From Oceaniovalibus sp. ACAM 378 (GTDB lineage Bacteria > Pseudomonadota > Alphaproteobacteria > Rhodobacterales > Rhodobacteraceae), in NCBI RefSeq assembly GCF_008085915.1, contig NZ_VSJK01000006.1, positions 248,001-312,000 of the forward strand: DNA of 64,000 nt, read 5' to 3'. The notes under the pieces were generated by a model. It was not told the DNA's origin. It was given only the letters and a program-made list of their open reading frames with translations, and searched no databases. Position numbers and translations under genes: made by a program. Below are positions 26,092 through 53,014 of this stretch, in pieces (positions within the stretch are counted from its first letter, which is position 1; the number at the start of each line of letters is the position of its first letter).

Positions 26092-27870
26092 TCAGCCTGC
26101 CGAACTGCCCGAACTGCGGTTGGATCCGGTGTCGGGATCGTCGGTGAAATCCGCAGTCTCGAAGGTGACGCCAACGGAATACACCCCGTTGTCTTCATTG
26201 GCGCTGCTTACGCCGCCCAGTTGCATCACAAACGCGCTGATCAACTGTGACCCGAGGCCGGAGACCGCTTGGTTTTGCTGCTCGATCACAAAGGGGCCAG
26301 TGCTGTTGGCAATGATCAGTTCGATTTTCGCAGCGCCGCTGGTGTCCTGTTCCAATTTGCGCAGGATCACCGAAACCCAAGGGTTCCCGGTCTCGGGCTG
26401 GCCGAGATATTTGAAGGCATTGGTCACGGCCTCGGTCAACATAAGCGACAGGGGCACCGCCTGATCGGGATAGAGCAGCACAGGTTCGGTTTCGAGCGTA
26501 AAGTCGATCCGTTTGCCGGGCACGATCGACGAATTTGCCAGCTGCCGCGCAAGCTCGGAAATCAGGGTGTCGGCCCGCACTTCGGACAGGACAGCCGCCT
26601 GATACAGATTGCGATGCACGGTCGCCAGACCCATCACCCGGTCCTGCAGGCGGCGCAGCATGAATTTGGTTTCGCCGTGCTGGGCGCGGCGGATCTGCAT
26701 GTTGGTCATCGACGCGATCAGTTGCAGGTTGTTCTTGACCCGGTGATGCACCTCTTTCAGCAACACGTCCTTTTCATGCAGCAGGTTTTCTTGATCCGCC
26801 TCGTCCAGCAGGATCTGTTCGGTCATCTGGGAAAATGCATCCATCACCTCGCGCAGTTCGGCTGGCACGTCGCGGCCATCATCGATGCGGATCCGGCGCG
26901 TGGCGGCAAAGGTGCGAATATTTCGGCGCAGGCTGCGGATGTGGCGGATGACCAACCGGTGCACGGCGATATAGGCGACGGCAAGGCTTGCCAGCCACAT
27001 CAGCAGCGGAAACAGCATCGCCGCGACATAACCGCCGACGCCGATCCGCCAGGTTTCGACCGACCATATTCCAAGAGTATAGACCTGCCCTGGAACCAGC
27101 GGCACCACAGTATAAATCCGTTCGCGCCCCGCCTTGTCGAAATCCTGAAACACAATTCCGGTGTCGGTGGTCAGATTGACAAGGGCGCGGTTGGCCGGAA
27201 TCCGCTTTTCGACGGTTTCAAGTCCAACGTCCGAGATCAGCGGAATTCCCTGACTGTCGAATGTCAGAATGTCGATGGCATTGACCTGATTGCCTTCGAT
27301 ATCCCGTTCCAGGGTCACGCTGTTGAACGGCAGGGCAAGAGTGACGTAACCGATCGGCTGCATGGAAGCGTCGCGCACCGATTTACGGATCAGGATCGAG
27401 GCCGCGTCGGTGATCGCAGTACGTTCGGCAACTCTGACCGAGCCCTCTGTGTCATTGGAGAACATCAGGGCGACGTCGGGTTCGGCAACCTGCTGCCCGA
27501 CCCGCTGGGATCCGCAAACCAACTGGCCCGTGGTATCGGTGAAGCCCGCAAAGTTGATGATCGGCGTATCCCGCACCATGCGGACCATATAGGCGCTGCA
27601 CGACGATGTGTCGTCCATCATTTCGGGCAGGTTCAAAGCCAGTGAATCCGCCAGACCGATCATCCGAGTAATGACGCGGCGTTCGACGGCAGAGGCATTC
27701 AGACTTTCGCCCAAAAGGGATGAATCGACGCGGCGGTTCGCCTCGGACAGCACCCGCCAGGTCTGCATCATCGTCATGATGCCGACGGGCAAAAGAGCCA
27801 GCCCCAGCAGGAGAACCAACCGCACGCCAAGCCTGTCAAGCCGCGCAAATCCCAGAGCGCCGGGAACCAT
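26092..27870 (-). CDS. Membrane-bound HisKA_2 sensor histidine kinase of the general stress response
   Basis: The ATG at 27870 begins one base after the ecfG stop (TGAAATG), so this 592-residue start is preferred to an extension that would overlap ecfG. Order: TM1 (residues 17-37), a periplasmic sensor of about 240 residues, TM2 (about 280-305), a HAMP-like linker, then the HisKA_2 dimerisation motif LLKEVHHRVKNNLQLIASM (phospho-His at 375/376) and a HATPase domain with LTEAVTNAFKYLG. HisKA_2/HWE kinases of this kind control PhyR in alphaproteobacteria, and its place in the nepR-ecfG operon supports a role as the PhyR kinase/phosphatase. The signal sensed is unknown. Confidence 0.88.
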   Translation of the reverse strand: MVPGALGFARLDRLGVRLVLLLGLALLPVGIMTMMQTWRVLSEANRRVDSSLLGESLNASAVERRVITRMIGLADSLALNLPEMMDDTSSCSAYMVRMVRDTPIINFAGFTDTTGQLVCGSQRVGQQVAEPDVALMFSNDTEGSVRVAERTAITDAASILIRKSVRDASMQPIGYVTLALPFNSVTLERDIEGNQVNAIDILTFDSQGIPLISDVGLETVEKRIPANRALVNLTTDTGIVFQDFDKAGRERIYTVVPLVPGQVYTLGIWSVETWRIGVGGYVAAMLFPLLMWLASLAVAYIAVHRLVIRHIRSLRRNIRTFAATRRIRIDDGRDVPAELREVMDAFSQMTEQILLDEADQENLLHEKDVLLKEVHHRVKNNLQLIASMTNMQIRRAQHGETKFMLRRLQDRVMGLATVHRNLYQAAVLSEVRADTLISELARQLANSSIVPGKRIDFTLETEPVLLYPDQAVPLSLMLTEAVTNAFKYLGQPETGNPWVSVILRKLEQDTSGAAKIELIIANSTGPFVIEQQNQAVSGLGSQLISAFVMQLGGVSSANEDNGVYSVGVTFETADFTDDPDTGSNRSSGSSAG

Positions 27871-27871
27871 T

Positions 27872-28426
27872 TCAGCCGTTGCGCGGCGCAGAAAGCACCG
27901 AGGCATTGTTGGCGTCGGAAATGGTCGGATCCTCTCCCTCTTCCAGATGCAGGAGTTCGGCCAGTTTCTTGCGCCCGCGATTGGCCCGGCTCTTGATCGT
28001 GCCGACGGCAACGCCGCACATTGCCGCCGCTTCCTCGTAAGCAAAACCCGAGCCGCCGACCAGAATCAACGCCTCGCGTTGCTCAACTGGCAGTTTGTCA
28101 AAAGCCTTGCGGAAATCGTTCAACGCCAGCCGTCCGTCATGGGCCGGTTTTTCGGCAAGATTGCCGGCCATGATGCCGTCAATATCCTCGACCTCGCGTT
28201 TGACCTTGCGGCGCGACGAATAGAACGCGTTGCGCTGGATCGTGAACAGCCAGGCGCGCAGATTTGTGCCGGGTGTAAAGCTGGTGATGTTTTTCCACGC
28301 CTTTTCAATTGTGTCCTGCACAAGATCGTCGGCGGCGGATGAATTTCGAGTCAATGACATCGCAAAAGCACGCAGCGCTGGCAAGTGATCGATCAATTCA
28401 TCCCGCGGGTCGCGGTGTTCCGTCAT
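27872..28426 (-). CDS. ecfG: EcfG-family sigma factor of the general stress response
   Basis: The 184-residue ECF sigma factor has region 2 (DDLVQDTIEKAWKNITSF and LRAWLFTIQRNAFYSSRRK) and region 4 (LPVEQREALILVGGSGFAYEEAA then GVAVGTIKSRANRGRKKL). This is the ECF15/EcfG pattern. EcfG directs RNA polymerase to GGAAC-N16/17-CGTT promoters and is held by NepR until phosphorylated PhyR takes NepR away. Its ATG overlaps the nepR stop by ATGA and its stop is one base before the kinase ATG. A consensus EcfG promoter upstream of nepR implies autoregulation. Confidence 0.95.
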   Translation of the reverse strand: MTEHRDPRDELIDHLPALRAFAMSLTRNSSAADDLVQDTIEKAWKNITSFTPGTNLRAWLFTIQRNAFYSSRRKVKREVEDIDGIMAGNLAEKPAHDGRLALNDFRKAFDKLPVEQREALILVGGSGFAYEEAAAMCGVAVGTIKSRANRGRKKLAELLHLEEGEDPTISDANNASVLSAPRNG

Positions 28427-28569
28427 TTGGGCGGTTCCTGCTCGCGCAGCTTGTTCAGCAGATCCTTGAACCGGTCCGGTACCTCGTTCTTTTCAACTTC
28501 GCGGTAAACCCGCCGCAAGTTTTCATCGATCTGCTTCATTACGTTCGAGGGTTCCTTGGCAGGGTCCAT
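28423..28569 (-). CDS. nepR: NepR anti-sigma factor
   Basis: This 48-residue reading frame encodes a product with the NepR core: MKQIDENLRRVYREV, then EKNEVPDRFKDLLNKLREQE. The two amphipathic helices are the part that binds EcfG, or PhyR when PhyR is phosphorylated. Its TGA overlaps the ecfG ATG (ATGA), as expected for a coupled anti-sigma/sigma pair. The start at 28569 lies 45 bp from the end of the -10 element of the divergent stress promoter. It is at the short end for the family and easily missed by gene callers. Confidence 0.93.
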   Translation of the reverse strand: MDPAKEPSNVMKQIDENLRRVYREVEKNEVPDRFKDLLNKLREQEPPK

Positions 28570-28606
28570 AATCTGATCTAGCTCTCATCATTATTCTGCG
28601 CGCTTC

Positions 28607-28631
28607 GGAACCAAACGCCACCGTCGGCGTT
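28607..28631 (+). promoter_or_regulatory. EcfG-dependent promoter for phyR
   Basis: The -35 element GGAAC is at 28607-28611 and the -10 element CGTT at 28628-28631, separated by exactly 16 bp, an exact match to the known EcfG consensus. The phyR ATG is 42 bp downstream. It lies within a perfect 16-bp-arm palindrome (28604-28619 and 28626-28641). Confidence 0.88.
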
Positions 28632-28638
28632 TGGTTCC
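28614..28638 (-). promoter_or_regulatory. EcfG-dependent promoter for nepR-ecfG-kinase
   Basis: On the minus strand GGAAC (28638-28634) and CGTT (28617-28614) are 16 bp apart, again an exact consensus. This promoter and the phyR promoter share the two arms of one palindrome, so the -35 of each overlaps the other's -10 region. nepR starts 45 bp downstream. Confidence 0.88.
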
Positions 28639-28672
28639 GAACGTTTCTAAAAATAAAAGGATCAGGGTTCGG

Positions 28673-29500
28673 ATGACTGCTCAAATTCACGTTGACGATC
28701 TTTCGGGGCAGATCGGCGATGATCTGCCATATCTGCGCCGCTATGCACGCGCACTCACCGGCAGTCAGGAGACCGGCGATCGTTATGCTGCCGCCACTCT
28801 TGAGGCAATTCTGATCGACCGGTCGATTTTCCAGTCGCATCTTCAGCCAAAAGTGGCGCTTTTCCGGGCGTTTCACCTGATCTGGGCGACATCTGGTGCG
28901 CCTACTGCCGATACTGAAGCGCCGGCGACACGGCTGGAATCCGCGGCGCTCGACCATATGGCGGGGCTGACCAACAACAGTCGCGAGGTTCTGTTGCTGT
29001 CGACAATCGAATCCTTCACCTATGCCGAAGTCGGGCAGATCATGGAGATCACCGCGGACGAGGCGGGCGAACTGGCTGCGGTTGCGATTGCCGAAATGGA
29101 AAGATCCATGGCTGGCAAGGTGATGATCATCGAAGATGAGGCGATCATCGCCATGGATATTCACTCCATCGTCTCCGAGATGGGCCATTCGGTTACCGGC
29201 ATCGCCCGGACCCGCAAAGCGGCCGTCGAACTGGGCAGCCGCGAACGGCCCGATCTGATCTTGGCCGATATTCAGCTGGCCGACAATTCGTCGGGCATTG
29301 ATGCGGTGAACGATCTTCTGGCGCAGTTCGATAATATCCCGGTGATTTTCATCACCGCTTTCCCCGAACGGCTGCTTACAGGAGACAAGCCCGAACCGGC
29401 ATTTCTGATCTCGAAGCCGTATTCGGAAGAGCAGGTGCGCTCTGCCGTCAGTCAGGCGATGTTCTTCTCCAGTACGGAAACGCTTAAATCGCCGGTCTGA
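28673..29500 (+). CDS. phyR: PhyR response regulator, anti-anti-sigma factor
   Basis: PhyR has an N-terminal sigma-like domain (residues 1-140, resembling EcfG regions 2 and 4) and a C-terminal receiver domain (about 148-265) with the phospho-acceptor Asp199 in DLILADIQLAD, an acidic pocket at EDE (154-156) and the switch Lys in SKPYS. When phosphorylated it binds NepR and frees EcfG. The 275-residue length is normal. The start at 28673 gives the family N-terminus. It is divergent from nepR-ecfG, with a shared palindromic promoter between them. Confidence 0.95.
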   Translation: MTAQIHVDDLSGQIGDDLPYLRRYARALTGSQETGDRYAAATLEAILIDRSIFQSHLQPKVALFRAFHLIWATSGAPTADTEAPATRLESAALDHMAGLTNNSREVLLLSTIESFTYAEVGQIMEITADEAGELAAVAIAEMERSMAGKVMIIEDEAIIAMDIHSIVSEMGHSVTGIARTRKAAVELGSRERPDLILADIQLADNSSGIDAVNDLLAQFDNIPVIFITAFPERLLTGDKPEPAFLISKPYSEEQVRSAVSQAMFFSSTETLKSPV

Positions 29501-29531
29501 TCCGGTTTGACGATCGCGCCAGTATTGGAAG

Positions 29532-29565
29532 CACCCCGTCCGATATCCGGGCGGGGTGTTTTTTT
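29532..29565 (+). terminator. Rho-independent terminator after phyR
   Basis: An 11-bp stem with one G-T pair (starting CACCCCG, ending CGGGGTG) at 29532-29558 is followed by seven T (29559-29565). The T run overlaps the last codon and stop of the convergent DUF1328 gene. Confidence 0.85.
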
Positions 29566-29737
29566 ATCGGCGGTCCGGGCGTCCGGCCACACGCCCCGCC
29601 AACGTGCCGACAGACAGGAACAGAAACAGATAAAAGACTGCGCGGGCCAGTGTGCCGTACAAACCTGTGGCGCCGCCAAATCCAAAAGCGGCCGCGCCCA
29701 GCGCAATAATAAGAAAAGCCAGTGCCCATCTGAGCAT
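29564..29737 (-). CDS. DUF1328 small membrane protein
   Basis: This 57-residue protein (MLRWALAFLIIALGAAAFGFGG, then LYGTLARAVFYLFLFLSV) has two membrane segments and matches the DUF1328/YtjA family. The family occurs widely in stress-induced gene sets of proteobacteria but its function is unknown. A near-consensus EcfG promoter lies about 80 bp upstream (29819-29843). Its stop lies in the T run of the phyR terminator. Confidence 0.85.
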   Translation of the reverse strand: MLRWALAFLIIALGAAAFGFGGATGLYGTLARAVFYLFLFLSVGTLAGRVAGRPDRR

Positions 29738-29870: not shown

Positions 29871-29895
29871 GGAACCGTTCGGTGTTTCGGGCGTT
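29871..29895 (+). promoter_or_regulatory. EcfG-dependent promoter for the DUF883-DUF1469 pair
   Basis: GGAAC at 29871-29875 and CGTT at 29892-29895 are exactly 16 bp apart, a full consensus match on the plus strand. The DUF883 ATG is 30 bp further on, after a GAGGAG ribosome-binding site. Confidence 0.85.
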
Positions 29896-29925: not shown

Positions 29926-30237
29926 ATGGCCACGACCAAGACCCCGACCCCCGAAGATCTTTCGATGCAGATCGACCAGCTTAAGCTGGACATCGCATTG
30001 CTGACCGAAACAATCACCGATATTGGCAAAAGCAAGGGCGATGAGCTTGCTGACACAGTGCGCTCCAAGGCGCGTTCCGCCCGTGCCGCCGGAGAAGAGC
30101 AGGTTGCCGAGTTGCAGCGTCGCGCTCAGGAAACCGCAAATTCCGCCGAAGATTATGTGCGTGCCAACCCCGCTGCGGCTTTGGGGATTGCGGCCGGGTT
30201 CGGACTTTTGGTCGGTCTTATCACTTCGCGACGCTGA
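29926..30237 (+). CDS. DUF883 (ElaB/YqjD-like) membrane-anchored protein
   Basis: The 103-residue protein is mostly a charged helical rod (residues 10-75) and ends with VRANPAAALGIAAGFGLLVGLITSRR, the C-terminal membrane anchor of the ElaB/YqjD/YgaM family. In E. coli these are stationary-phase proteins that bind ribosomes at the inner membrane. Here an exact EcfG promoter 30 bp upstream predicts stress induction. It is followed 4 bp later by a small membrane protein gene. Confidence 0.88.
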   Translation: MATTKTPTPEDLSMQIDQLKLDIALLTETITDIGKSKGDELADTVRSKARSARAAGEEQVAELQRRAQETANSAEDYVRANPAAALGIAAGFGLLVGLITSRR

Positions 30238-30800: not shown

Positions 30801-30824
30801 GGGGTGCTGGGGTGCTGGGGTGCT
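30801..30824. repeat. Three perfect tandem copies of GGGGTGCT
   Basis: Copies are at 30801-30808, 30809-30816 and 30817-30824, about 80 bp before the Crp/Fnr start codon. Short perfect repeats of this kind can change copy number by slippage. Confidence 0.85.
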
Positions 30825-30905
30825 ATGGTCGGTCACCAGACCGCACTGGTCCATCCTCGCTTGGCGCCGGGATGGCCCCGTCCAAGACACCGACAGGAGG
30901 CAAGA

Positions 30906-31634
30906 ATGCCGACGAAATGCTTCAATTGTCCCCTGCGCCGGAAATCGATTTTCTCGCCCATGACTGACGATGAAGTTGCTTTCATGTCGCGGTTCAAGAC
31001 TGGCGAGCTGACGGTAGATCCTGGGACACAGCTCTTGATGGACGGGTCGAATTCGCCACAGCTTTATACCGCTCTCAGCGGAATGGGCGTGCGGTATAAG
31101 ACGCTTCTTGACGGTCGGCGACAGGTCGTCAGCTTTGTCTTTCCCGGCGATCTGATCGGGATGCAGGCCGGAATAATGGGCGAAATGAAGCACTCTGTTG
31201 AAGCAACCACAGCGATGACGCTGTGCGTGTTCAGCCGCAGCGATGTCTGGAACCTGTTCAAGACCCATCCCTCCCGTGCTTTTGACATGACCTGGCTGGC
31301 GGCCGTCGAGGAAAATTTTCTGGGTGATGCTCTGGCGACCATTGGCCAGAGGACCGCGATCGAGCGTATCTCCTGGGCCATGGTCAAGATGTTCCGACGG
31401 GCCGAGGCTCTTGAGATGACCGACGGTCAGTTCATGCCGCTGCCGTACCGGCAACAGGATCTGGCGGATGCTCTGGGGCTGTCGCTGGTCCACACCAACA
31501 AGACGCTGGGAAAGCTGCGCGAGCGGCAACTTGCGTCCTGGGCCGATCGAAAACTGCATCTGATGGATATTGATGCACTGGCCCGGATCGCGCAGATCGA
31601 ACACGAAGAACCCGAGATGCGCCCGCTGATGTAG
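30906..31634 (+). CDS. Crp/Fnr family transcription regulator
   Basis: The ATG at 30906 has an AGGAGG site. The 242-residue protein has a cNMP-binding-type beta-roll domain (about residues 20-135: VSFVFPGDLIGMQAG) and a C-terminal winged helix with the recognition segment YRQQDLADALGLSLVHTNKTLGKL. The N-terminus has CFNCPLR only, without the four cysteines of oxygen-sensing FNR, so an FNR-type 4Fe-4S cluster is unlikely. It lies between two stress-controlled units and may be part of the same network, but no EcfG promoter was found in front of it. Effector and targets are unknown. Confidence 0.88.
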   Translation: MPTKCFNCPLRRKSIFSPMTDDEVAFMSRFKTGELTVDPGTQLLMDGSNSPQLYTALSGMGVRYKTLLDGRRQVVSFVFPGDLIGMQAGIMGEMKHSVEATTAMTLCVFSRSDVWNLFKTHPSRAFDMTWLAAVEENFLGDALATIGQRTAIERISWAMVKMFRRAEALEMTDGQFMPLPYRQQDLADALGLSLVHTNKTLGKLRERQLASWADRKLHLMDIDALARIAQIEHEEPEMRPLM

Positions 31635-52949: not shown

Positions 52950-53014
52950 CCTCATCGGTCCTGCGTCCCTCTTCGGCGACCCAAGGCCCGAAAAGGGACG
53001 CAGGACCGATGAGG
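52950..53014. terminator. 21-bp perfect inverted repeat after pheT
   Basis: Arms at 52950-52970 (starting CCTCATCGGTCC) and 52994-53014 are perfectly complementary over 21 bp. The 23-nt loop adds an inner stem TTCGG/CCGAA after one mismatch. It begins 3 bp after the pheT stop and ends 6 bp before the SRP RNA promoter. It has no T run. It probably ends pheT transcription and insulates the RNA gene. Confidence 0.65.

Follow-up and report, generated by a model that had tools for sequence, protein, structure and literature searches.

The window, a 64,000-nucleotide stretch of DNA from Oceaniovalibus sp. ACAM 378, carries a phyR gene whose product combines a sigma-like domain with a receiver domain. 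It is divergent from nepR and an ecfG-type ECF sigma factor gene, and the three genes lie side by side as a PhyR-NepR-EcfG partner-switch locus (Table 1). nepR and the sigma factor gene probably form one operon, since the end of nepR is overlapped by 4 bp. The PhyK-like histidine kinase scores 185 bits against the PhyK model, under that model's cut-off of 750. Two further genes were noted in the vicinity of phyR. The small DUF883-family gene, downstream of another predicted EcfG-type site, is possibly a further member of the regulon; the FNR/FixK-type regulator gene has model scores below cut-off, and the same neighbour has been reported in R. sphaeroides.

Table 1. Features of the phyR/nepR-ecfG region and related elements in the window
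Feature	Position	Strand	Details
HisKA_2/HWE histidine kinase, PhyK-like	26092 to about 27882	-	HisKA_2 1.3e-19
ecfG-type ECF sigma factor gene	27872-28426	-	overlaps the end of nepR by 4 bp
nepR, 48 aa	28423-28569	-	Pfam NepR 8e-15
Perfect inverted repeat, 16-bp arms, 6-nt centre	28604-28641	.	arms 100% complementary
EcfG-type promoter (predicted) towards phyR	28607-28631	+	GGAAC 28607-28611, N16, CGTT 28628-28631
EcfG-type promoter (predicted) towards nepR-ecfG	28638-28614	-	-35 28638-28634, N16, -10 28617-28614
Interleaved 32-bp module, the conserved unit	28607-28638	.	31-33 bp version in 75/88 phyR genomes
phyR	28673-29500	+	Pfam PhyR_sigma2, Response_reg; NCBIfam PhyR above cut-off
Further EcfG-type site (predicted)	29871-29895	+	30 bp before DUF883-family gene
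DUF883-family gene	29926-30237		small
FNR/FixK-type regulator gene	30804-31634	+	model scores below cut-off
Inverted repeat, 27-nt arms, 11 nt apart	52950-53014		96% complementary (one mismatch)

Two opposed promoter motifs within one inverted repeat

The start codons of phyR and nepR are 103 bp apart, and within these 103 bp sits an inverted repeat with arm 1 TTCGGAACCAAACGCC (28604-28619), centre ACCGTC (28620-28625) and arm 2 GGCGTTTGGTTCCGAA (28626-28641). The initial annotation had described a perfect palindrome between phyR and nepR-ecfG, and both its arms and the flanking genes were confirmed. Among the 13 inverted repeats listed in the window (arms of at least 13 nt, spaced up to 50 nt) it is the longest at 100% complementarity. 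A longer perfect run, of 21 bp, is contained in the pair at 52950-53014; this second repeat is possibly a terminator or a mobile-element remnant.

The EcfG-type promoter motif GGAAC-N16/17-CGTT occurs exactly, with the 16-nt spacer, on both strands of the repeat, as the annotation had stated. The + strand -10 element lies 41 bp from the phyR ATG and the - strand -10 element 44 bp from that of nepR. It had further been claimed that the -35 of each promoter overlaps the -10 region of the other. This is inexact, since the core elements do not overlap but are interleaved, the two 25-bp intervals having 18 bp in common: GGAAC (28607-28611) and the opposed -10 (AACG on the + strand, 28614-28617) are 2 bp apart, and the two -10 elements (28614-28617 and 28628-28631) are separate, with 10 bp between them. 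These predicted sites support the proposal that two opposed EcfG-type promoters occupy common DNA where phyR and nepR-ecfG diverge. The repeat was also considered as an RNA element, which was rejected because Rfam gave no match at gathering score in 27800-29600, and as a terminator, which was rejected because by eye neither arm is followed by a T-run and the predicted starts fall inside the repeat.

The bare motif is no evidence in itself, because within its own genome GGAAC-N16/17-CGTT shows no enrichment, with 103 matches against 144 for the pattern read backwards. When 96 family phyR upstream regions were resampled with a first-order Markov model, both sites appeared in any arrangement in 74 of 9600 resamples and the interleaved pair in one. 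The presence of the interleaved pair at this position upstream of phyR is not due to chance.

The interleaved module in related genomes

PhyR is present in 90 of the 198 genomes of the window's family group, f1 (E <= 1e-40), and upstream DNA covered 88 of these 90 (G036 and G143 are partial phyR matches at contig ends). An opposed interleaved pair of 31-33 bp, with each site matching at least 8 of 9 consensus bases, was found in 75 of the 88. The arrangement, which the initial annotation took to be unusual, is therefore the usual one in this family. Thirteen genomes are without a clean pair (G028, G061, G091, G092, G094, G100, G104, G163, G171, G187, G202, G213 and G224), and in some of them, for example G092, G104 and G224, the skeleton is kept with one element damaged. 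The exact pattern occurs in 32 of the 198 genomes, in one place each, against none for the reversed control. All 32 carry phyR, none of the 108 genomes without PhyR at E <= 1e-40 has the pattern, and 31 of the 32 places are just upstream of phyR, the exception being G143 with its partial phyR on another contig.

Scoring the sites free of any assumed geometry gave a similar picture at loci with a divergent ecfG. Both sites are present in 83 of 96 family loci, 79 of the 83 at -31 to -33, and in 61 of 77 loci of the named set, 57 of them interleaved; some genomes occur in both sets. When lengths of 30-34 bp were searched in 180 loci (100 plus 80 named, again with some genomes in both), 141 had a pair, of 31 bp (12), 32 bp (90) or 33 bp (39). 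The closest 80 of 515 named candidate loci include 59 with an overlapping pair, among them Oceaniglobus, Palleronia, Cereibacter, Thioclava, Salipiger and Roseovarius, and 21 without, one of which is missing its upstream DNA. As judged by sequence, the two sites are present, they stand in this register, and the register is conserved across f1.

All 12 named Paracoccus loci retain the site on the nepR side, and none has the overlapping pair (geometry-free scoring labels nine of the loci nepR-only and three as having a distant second site). Relatives that keep one promoter and lose the symmetry would, by the initial annotation's own standard, count against its reading; such relatives occur in some lineages, Paracoccus being one, whereas most relatives keep both promoters. 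We also observed, reading by eye, a stretch TCTTGTGCGC near the expected nepR start in all 12 Paracoccus loci, where the phyR-side EcfG site is lost. It lies to the left of the nepR-side site (L172, L176, L193, L196, L202, L210, L214, L215, L219, L222, L224 and L225) and could represent a novel operator, promoter or leader element.

Published expression data from R. sphaeroides bear on whether both sites are in use. According to the available text of PMC5830050, membrane stress raised ecfG mRNA in a PhyR-dependent manner, was the sole tested stress to do so, and did not raise phyR mRNA, which increased 2-3 fold under singlet oxygen, paraquat and diamide. In the dRNA-seq text available there, a start is given upstream of nepR-ecfG, and for phyR no start is mentioned. 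As Cereibacter ovatus and C. changlensis, of the same genus as C. sphaeroides, carry two full-consensus sites in the module, equal co-induction is not what the R. sphaeroides data show. Two readings accommodate these data: the directions compete and one wins, or the phyR promoter is not driven by EcfG.

The second possibility can be extended to many members of the family: the nepR-ecfG side alone would be a working EcfG promoter, with phyR transcribed mainly from another promoter and its EcfG-like site weak or relict. That phyR mRNA does not track ecfG mRNA in R. sphaeroides (PMC5830050, as far as its available text goes) is consistent with this, as are the Paracoccus loci and the bias among single-site loci with divergent ecfG, 22 of 24 being nepR-only and two phyR-only (96 plus 77 family loci, the two sets sharing some genomes). 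A relict would be expected to decay, however, and the retention of both sites in most loci with divergent ecfG in either set makes this account unlikely in our judgement. Some of that retention could be passive, since interleaving protects part of each promoter.

Symmetry of the module

The 141 interleaved loci comprise 129 distinct modules, and the longest perfect arms among these are the window's, at 16 bp. No other module reaches that length (1 of 129), and the next longest arms, of 14 bp, occur in five modules. In the 48 modules whose spacers are both 16 nt, none of the free columns showed left-right symmetry above permuted arms at p < 0.05, the smallest column p being 0.075, just outside the -35. 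Shuffling of arms among the 84 modules of 32 bp gave arms of at least 16 bp in 28% of trials, and the mean arm length of this class does not differ from shuffles (p 0.41). Nor did the 10 modules of 31 bp show an arm-length excess over shuffles (p 0.22); the 35 modules of 33 bp have a mean slightly above shuffles (p 0.042), a weak excess. Seven central columns of the 48 modules are nearly free, at 0.03-0.19 bits. The consensus columns reach about 2 bits, a value that is partly built in because the modules were chosen by those bases.

Symmetry is thus not conserved beyond the promoter elements, and on the column permutation together with the arm shuffles the palindrome was rejected as a selected feature. 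The expectation in the initial annotation that the symmetry would be conserved is not supported by these comparisons, as most relatives keep both promoters without it and shuffled arms reach 16 bp in 28% of trials. The perfect symmetry of the window looks like a by-product of two consensus promoters in this register and a few chance matches.

Long perfect dyads are typical of the operators of dimeric regulators, and the palindrome could accordingly be read as the operator of a dimeric repressor or activator. We regard this as extremely improbable, given that relatives do not preserve left-right symmetry beyond the EcfG elements and that the central bases vary without constraint.

The flanks differ between the two sides, so that the directions are not equivalent. 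Across 131 modules, columns +5/+6 and +12 to +15 of the phyR leader are rich in A (0.45-0.85 bits), and on the nepR side columns -13 to -17 form a weak run of T (about 0.3 bits). A G+C-rich element seen to the left of the module in close relatives is not general, TGCGC or GCGCA being present in 12 of the 131 left flanks.

Possible polymerase competition on shared promoter DNA

The explanation we favour, and consider probable, is that 28607-28638 comprises two opposed EcfG-dependent promoters, interleaved and acting as one shared feedback element, with the symmetry as a by-product. Each -10 element, 2 bp inside the opposite promoter's -35, would serve one direction, one driving phyR and the other nepR-ecfG, and both would be transcribed by RNA polymerase with EcfG. 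The starts are predicted roughly 7 nt past each -10, which for phyR would be at about 28637-28640. Because each predicted start falls in the opposite -35 element, polymerases would bind one at a time, so that any one initiation event would exclude the other direction and the two promoters would not be occupied at once. While EcfG activity is low, the two directions would barely interfere and would rise together, and at high activity polymerases would compete and both outputs would be capped. Simple occupancy algebra suggests that the mean initiation ratio would be independent of the EcfG level.

A toy simulation with equal directions compared shared occupancy with independent promoters at varied binding ratios, under constant or fluctuating sigma. 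At a binding ratio of 0.1 the simulated output was 4.9 mRNAs for shared and 5.5 for independent promoters, and sharing cost a third of the output at ratio 1 and almost half at ratio 10. The Fano factor at ratio 1 was 2.1 shared versus 3.8 independent when sigma fluctuated, and 0.95 versus 0.77 when it was constant. The share of one mRNA per cell was more variable with sharing from ratio 0.1 upwards (CV of the fraction at ratio 1, 0.163 versus 0.113). A tight per-cell ratio of the two mRNAs is consequently not supported as an effect of the arrangement, sharing having made the simulated ratio noisier. In this model the likely effect of sharing would be an output ceiling with less amplification of sigma fluctuations, without exclusive states.

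The simulated correlation between the two mRNAs ran from -0.13 to +0.01 when sigma was constant. When sigma fluctuated it lay between +0.06 and +0.62, lower for shared than for independent promoters. Values that never fall below -0.13 argue against the view, put forward in the initial annotation, that feedback on EcfG and PhyR is exclusive rather than simultaneous; as a whole, that earlier interpretation is partly supported. In its full form such a reading would have the symmetry itself selected and the two feedbacks mutually exclusive, as a two-state switch. It could draw on the 18 bp common to the promoters, which would make simultaneous occupancy sterically implausible, and on the R. sphaeroides phyR and ecfG mRNAs answering different stresses (PMC5830050, available text). 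Against it, beyond the promoter elements the modules are no more symmetrical than permuted arms, 16-bp arms are confined to one of 129 modules and the simulation produced no exclusive mRNA states, so that we judge a switch very unlikely. Moreover, promoter clearance takes seconds and mRNA lifetimes are minutes, which also speaks against a switch.

A class-wide draw found PhyR in 46 of 289 genomes (E <= 1e-30), and 48 loci were scanned, two from the window's family and 46 from outside it. ecfG is divergent within 1.3 kb upstream in 24 of the 46 outside loci, and 18 of these 24 have both sites. The -35 gaps in the 18 are -32 in four (three from one genus), -27 in three (two from one genus), +6 in one, +8 in six (two from family f5) and 28, 40, 41 and 88 in one locus each. 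Five of six loci in family f42 are interleaved. The -35 elements of family f5 are 5-14 bp apart in 24 of 30 loci (30 of 42 places found); one of the 24, G515, has an alternative pair at +1, and some of the 24 also have a nested one. Seen locus by locus in f5 (L283-L311), the phyR/nepR promoters stand back to back, with -35s 7-10 bp apart in 19 of 30, L030 included. Upstream of phyR in L312 and L313 we observed a 27-bp nested form, GGAACC-N15-GGTTCC, in which each direction's -35 contains the opposite direction's -10 (GGTT).

A PhyR tree of 56 rows placed f42 apart from the window family. With the long row L314 left out of the clade tests, a clade of the window family and f42 was not rejected (AU p 0.077), and the tests did reject a clade joining the window family to G009 and G398 (p 0.013). 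Counts of geometry changes on the tree are rough, the geometry rule having labelled G020 and G007 'other pair' despite an interleaved pair. These tests did not demonstrate an independent origin of interleaving in f42, which may derive from horizontal transfer or an ancestral state.

A single origin for the two families, compatible with the same test, would suit a lock-in without function, in which the interleaved register, once fixed by accident, has stayed in place, spares a few tens of bases and brings no regulatory benefit. Neither promoter could then drift without breaking the other, and because one promoter or both would suffer from any insertion between the elements, the exact register would be expected without selection for competition. 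Lock-in is compatible with the promoter part of our explanation. The other tight geometries elsewhere (+8 in 6 and nested 27 bp in 3 of the 18 outside loci; +5 to +14 in 24 of the 30 f5 loci) hint instead at a common preference for closeness, but loci of one genus or family are not independent and lock-in remains compatible with them. We see lock-in as possible, if somewhat unlikely.

A broader proposal, which we make tentatively and hold to be rather doubtful, is that Alphaproteobacteria confine the promoters of phyR and nepR-ecfG to a small number of sterically tight geometries (-31 to -33; nested -27; -35s about 8 bp apart), with polymerase competition as a built-in limiter and ratio-setter of the stress feedback and one direction able to win per stress, in line with what the R. 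sphaeroides mRNA data suggest.

The interleaved pair can be compared with several known systems. According to the available text of PMC4814048, nepR-ecfG is most often divergent from phyR in Alphaproteobacteria, usually with EcfG-type promoters on both sides and positive autoregulation expected, and co-regulation has been proposed to keep stoichiometry. Gene order and promoter type are alike here; shared promoter DNA is not described in that text, whereas here the promoters are interleaved within 31-33 bp. At the bidirectional promoters that Warman, Grainger and co-workers describe from E. coli and other prokaryotes (PMC12825309, available part), polymerase likewise binds in either orientation, one at a time. 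Those promoters share a -10, with starts mostly 18 but also 10 or 23 bp apart. The window pair has no opposed starts at a shared -10 by sequence: its -10s are separate, each beside the opposed -35, its predicted starts are about 30 bp apart, and its sigma factor is ECF-type and probably autoregulated. The E. coli promoters interfere only when strongly activated and show lower noise under interference (same source). In Pseudomonas syringae an ECF sigma factor restrains its own production by way of polymerase bound to the adjacent divergent promoter (hrpL/hrpJ; PMC5263251, available part). There the limited promoter uses sigma-54, whereas here sites for the same ECF sigma face both directions.

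Divergent EcfG control is already known, as are promoters on common DNA. Among the matches listed, no printed account of the interleaved register, of its spread or of its alternatives was found: a full-text literature search gave no plain description of the interleaved phyR/nepR-ecfG geometry in the titles and abstract beginnings of these matches, and none is given in the available portions of PMC7083833, PMC3999984, PMC10673084, PMC9275681 and PMC5263251. A figure legend for Rubellimicrobium, in the available part of PMC12148442, predicts GGAAC-N16-17-C/GGTT promoters at such a locus, and that figure may depict the overlap already.

For the partner switch, what counts is how PhyR, NepR and EcfG are balanced. 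A pair of promoters on shared DNA would couple the synthesis of all three and cap the positive feedback, and would offer a simple case of an autoregulated ECF polymerase competing with itself. It is also a possible explanation for the stress differences between phyR and ecfG mRNAs described for R. sphaeroides in the available text of PMC5830050.
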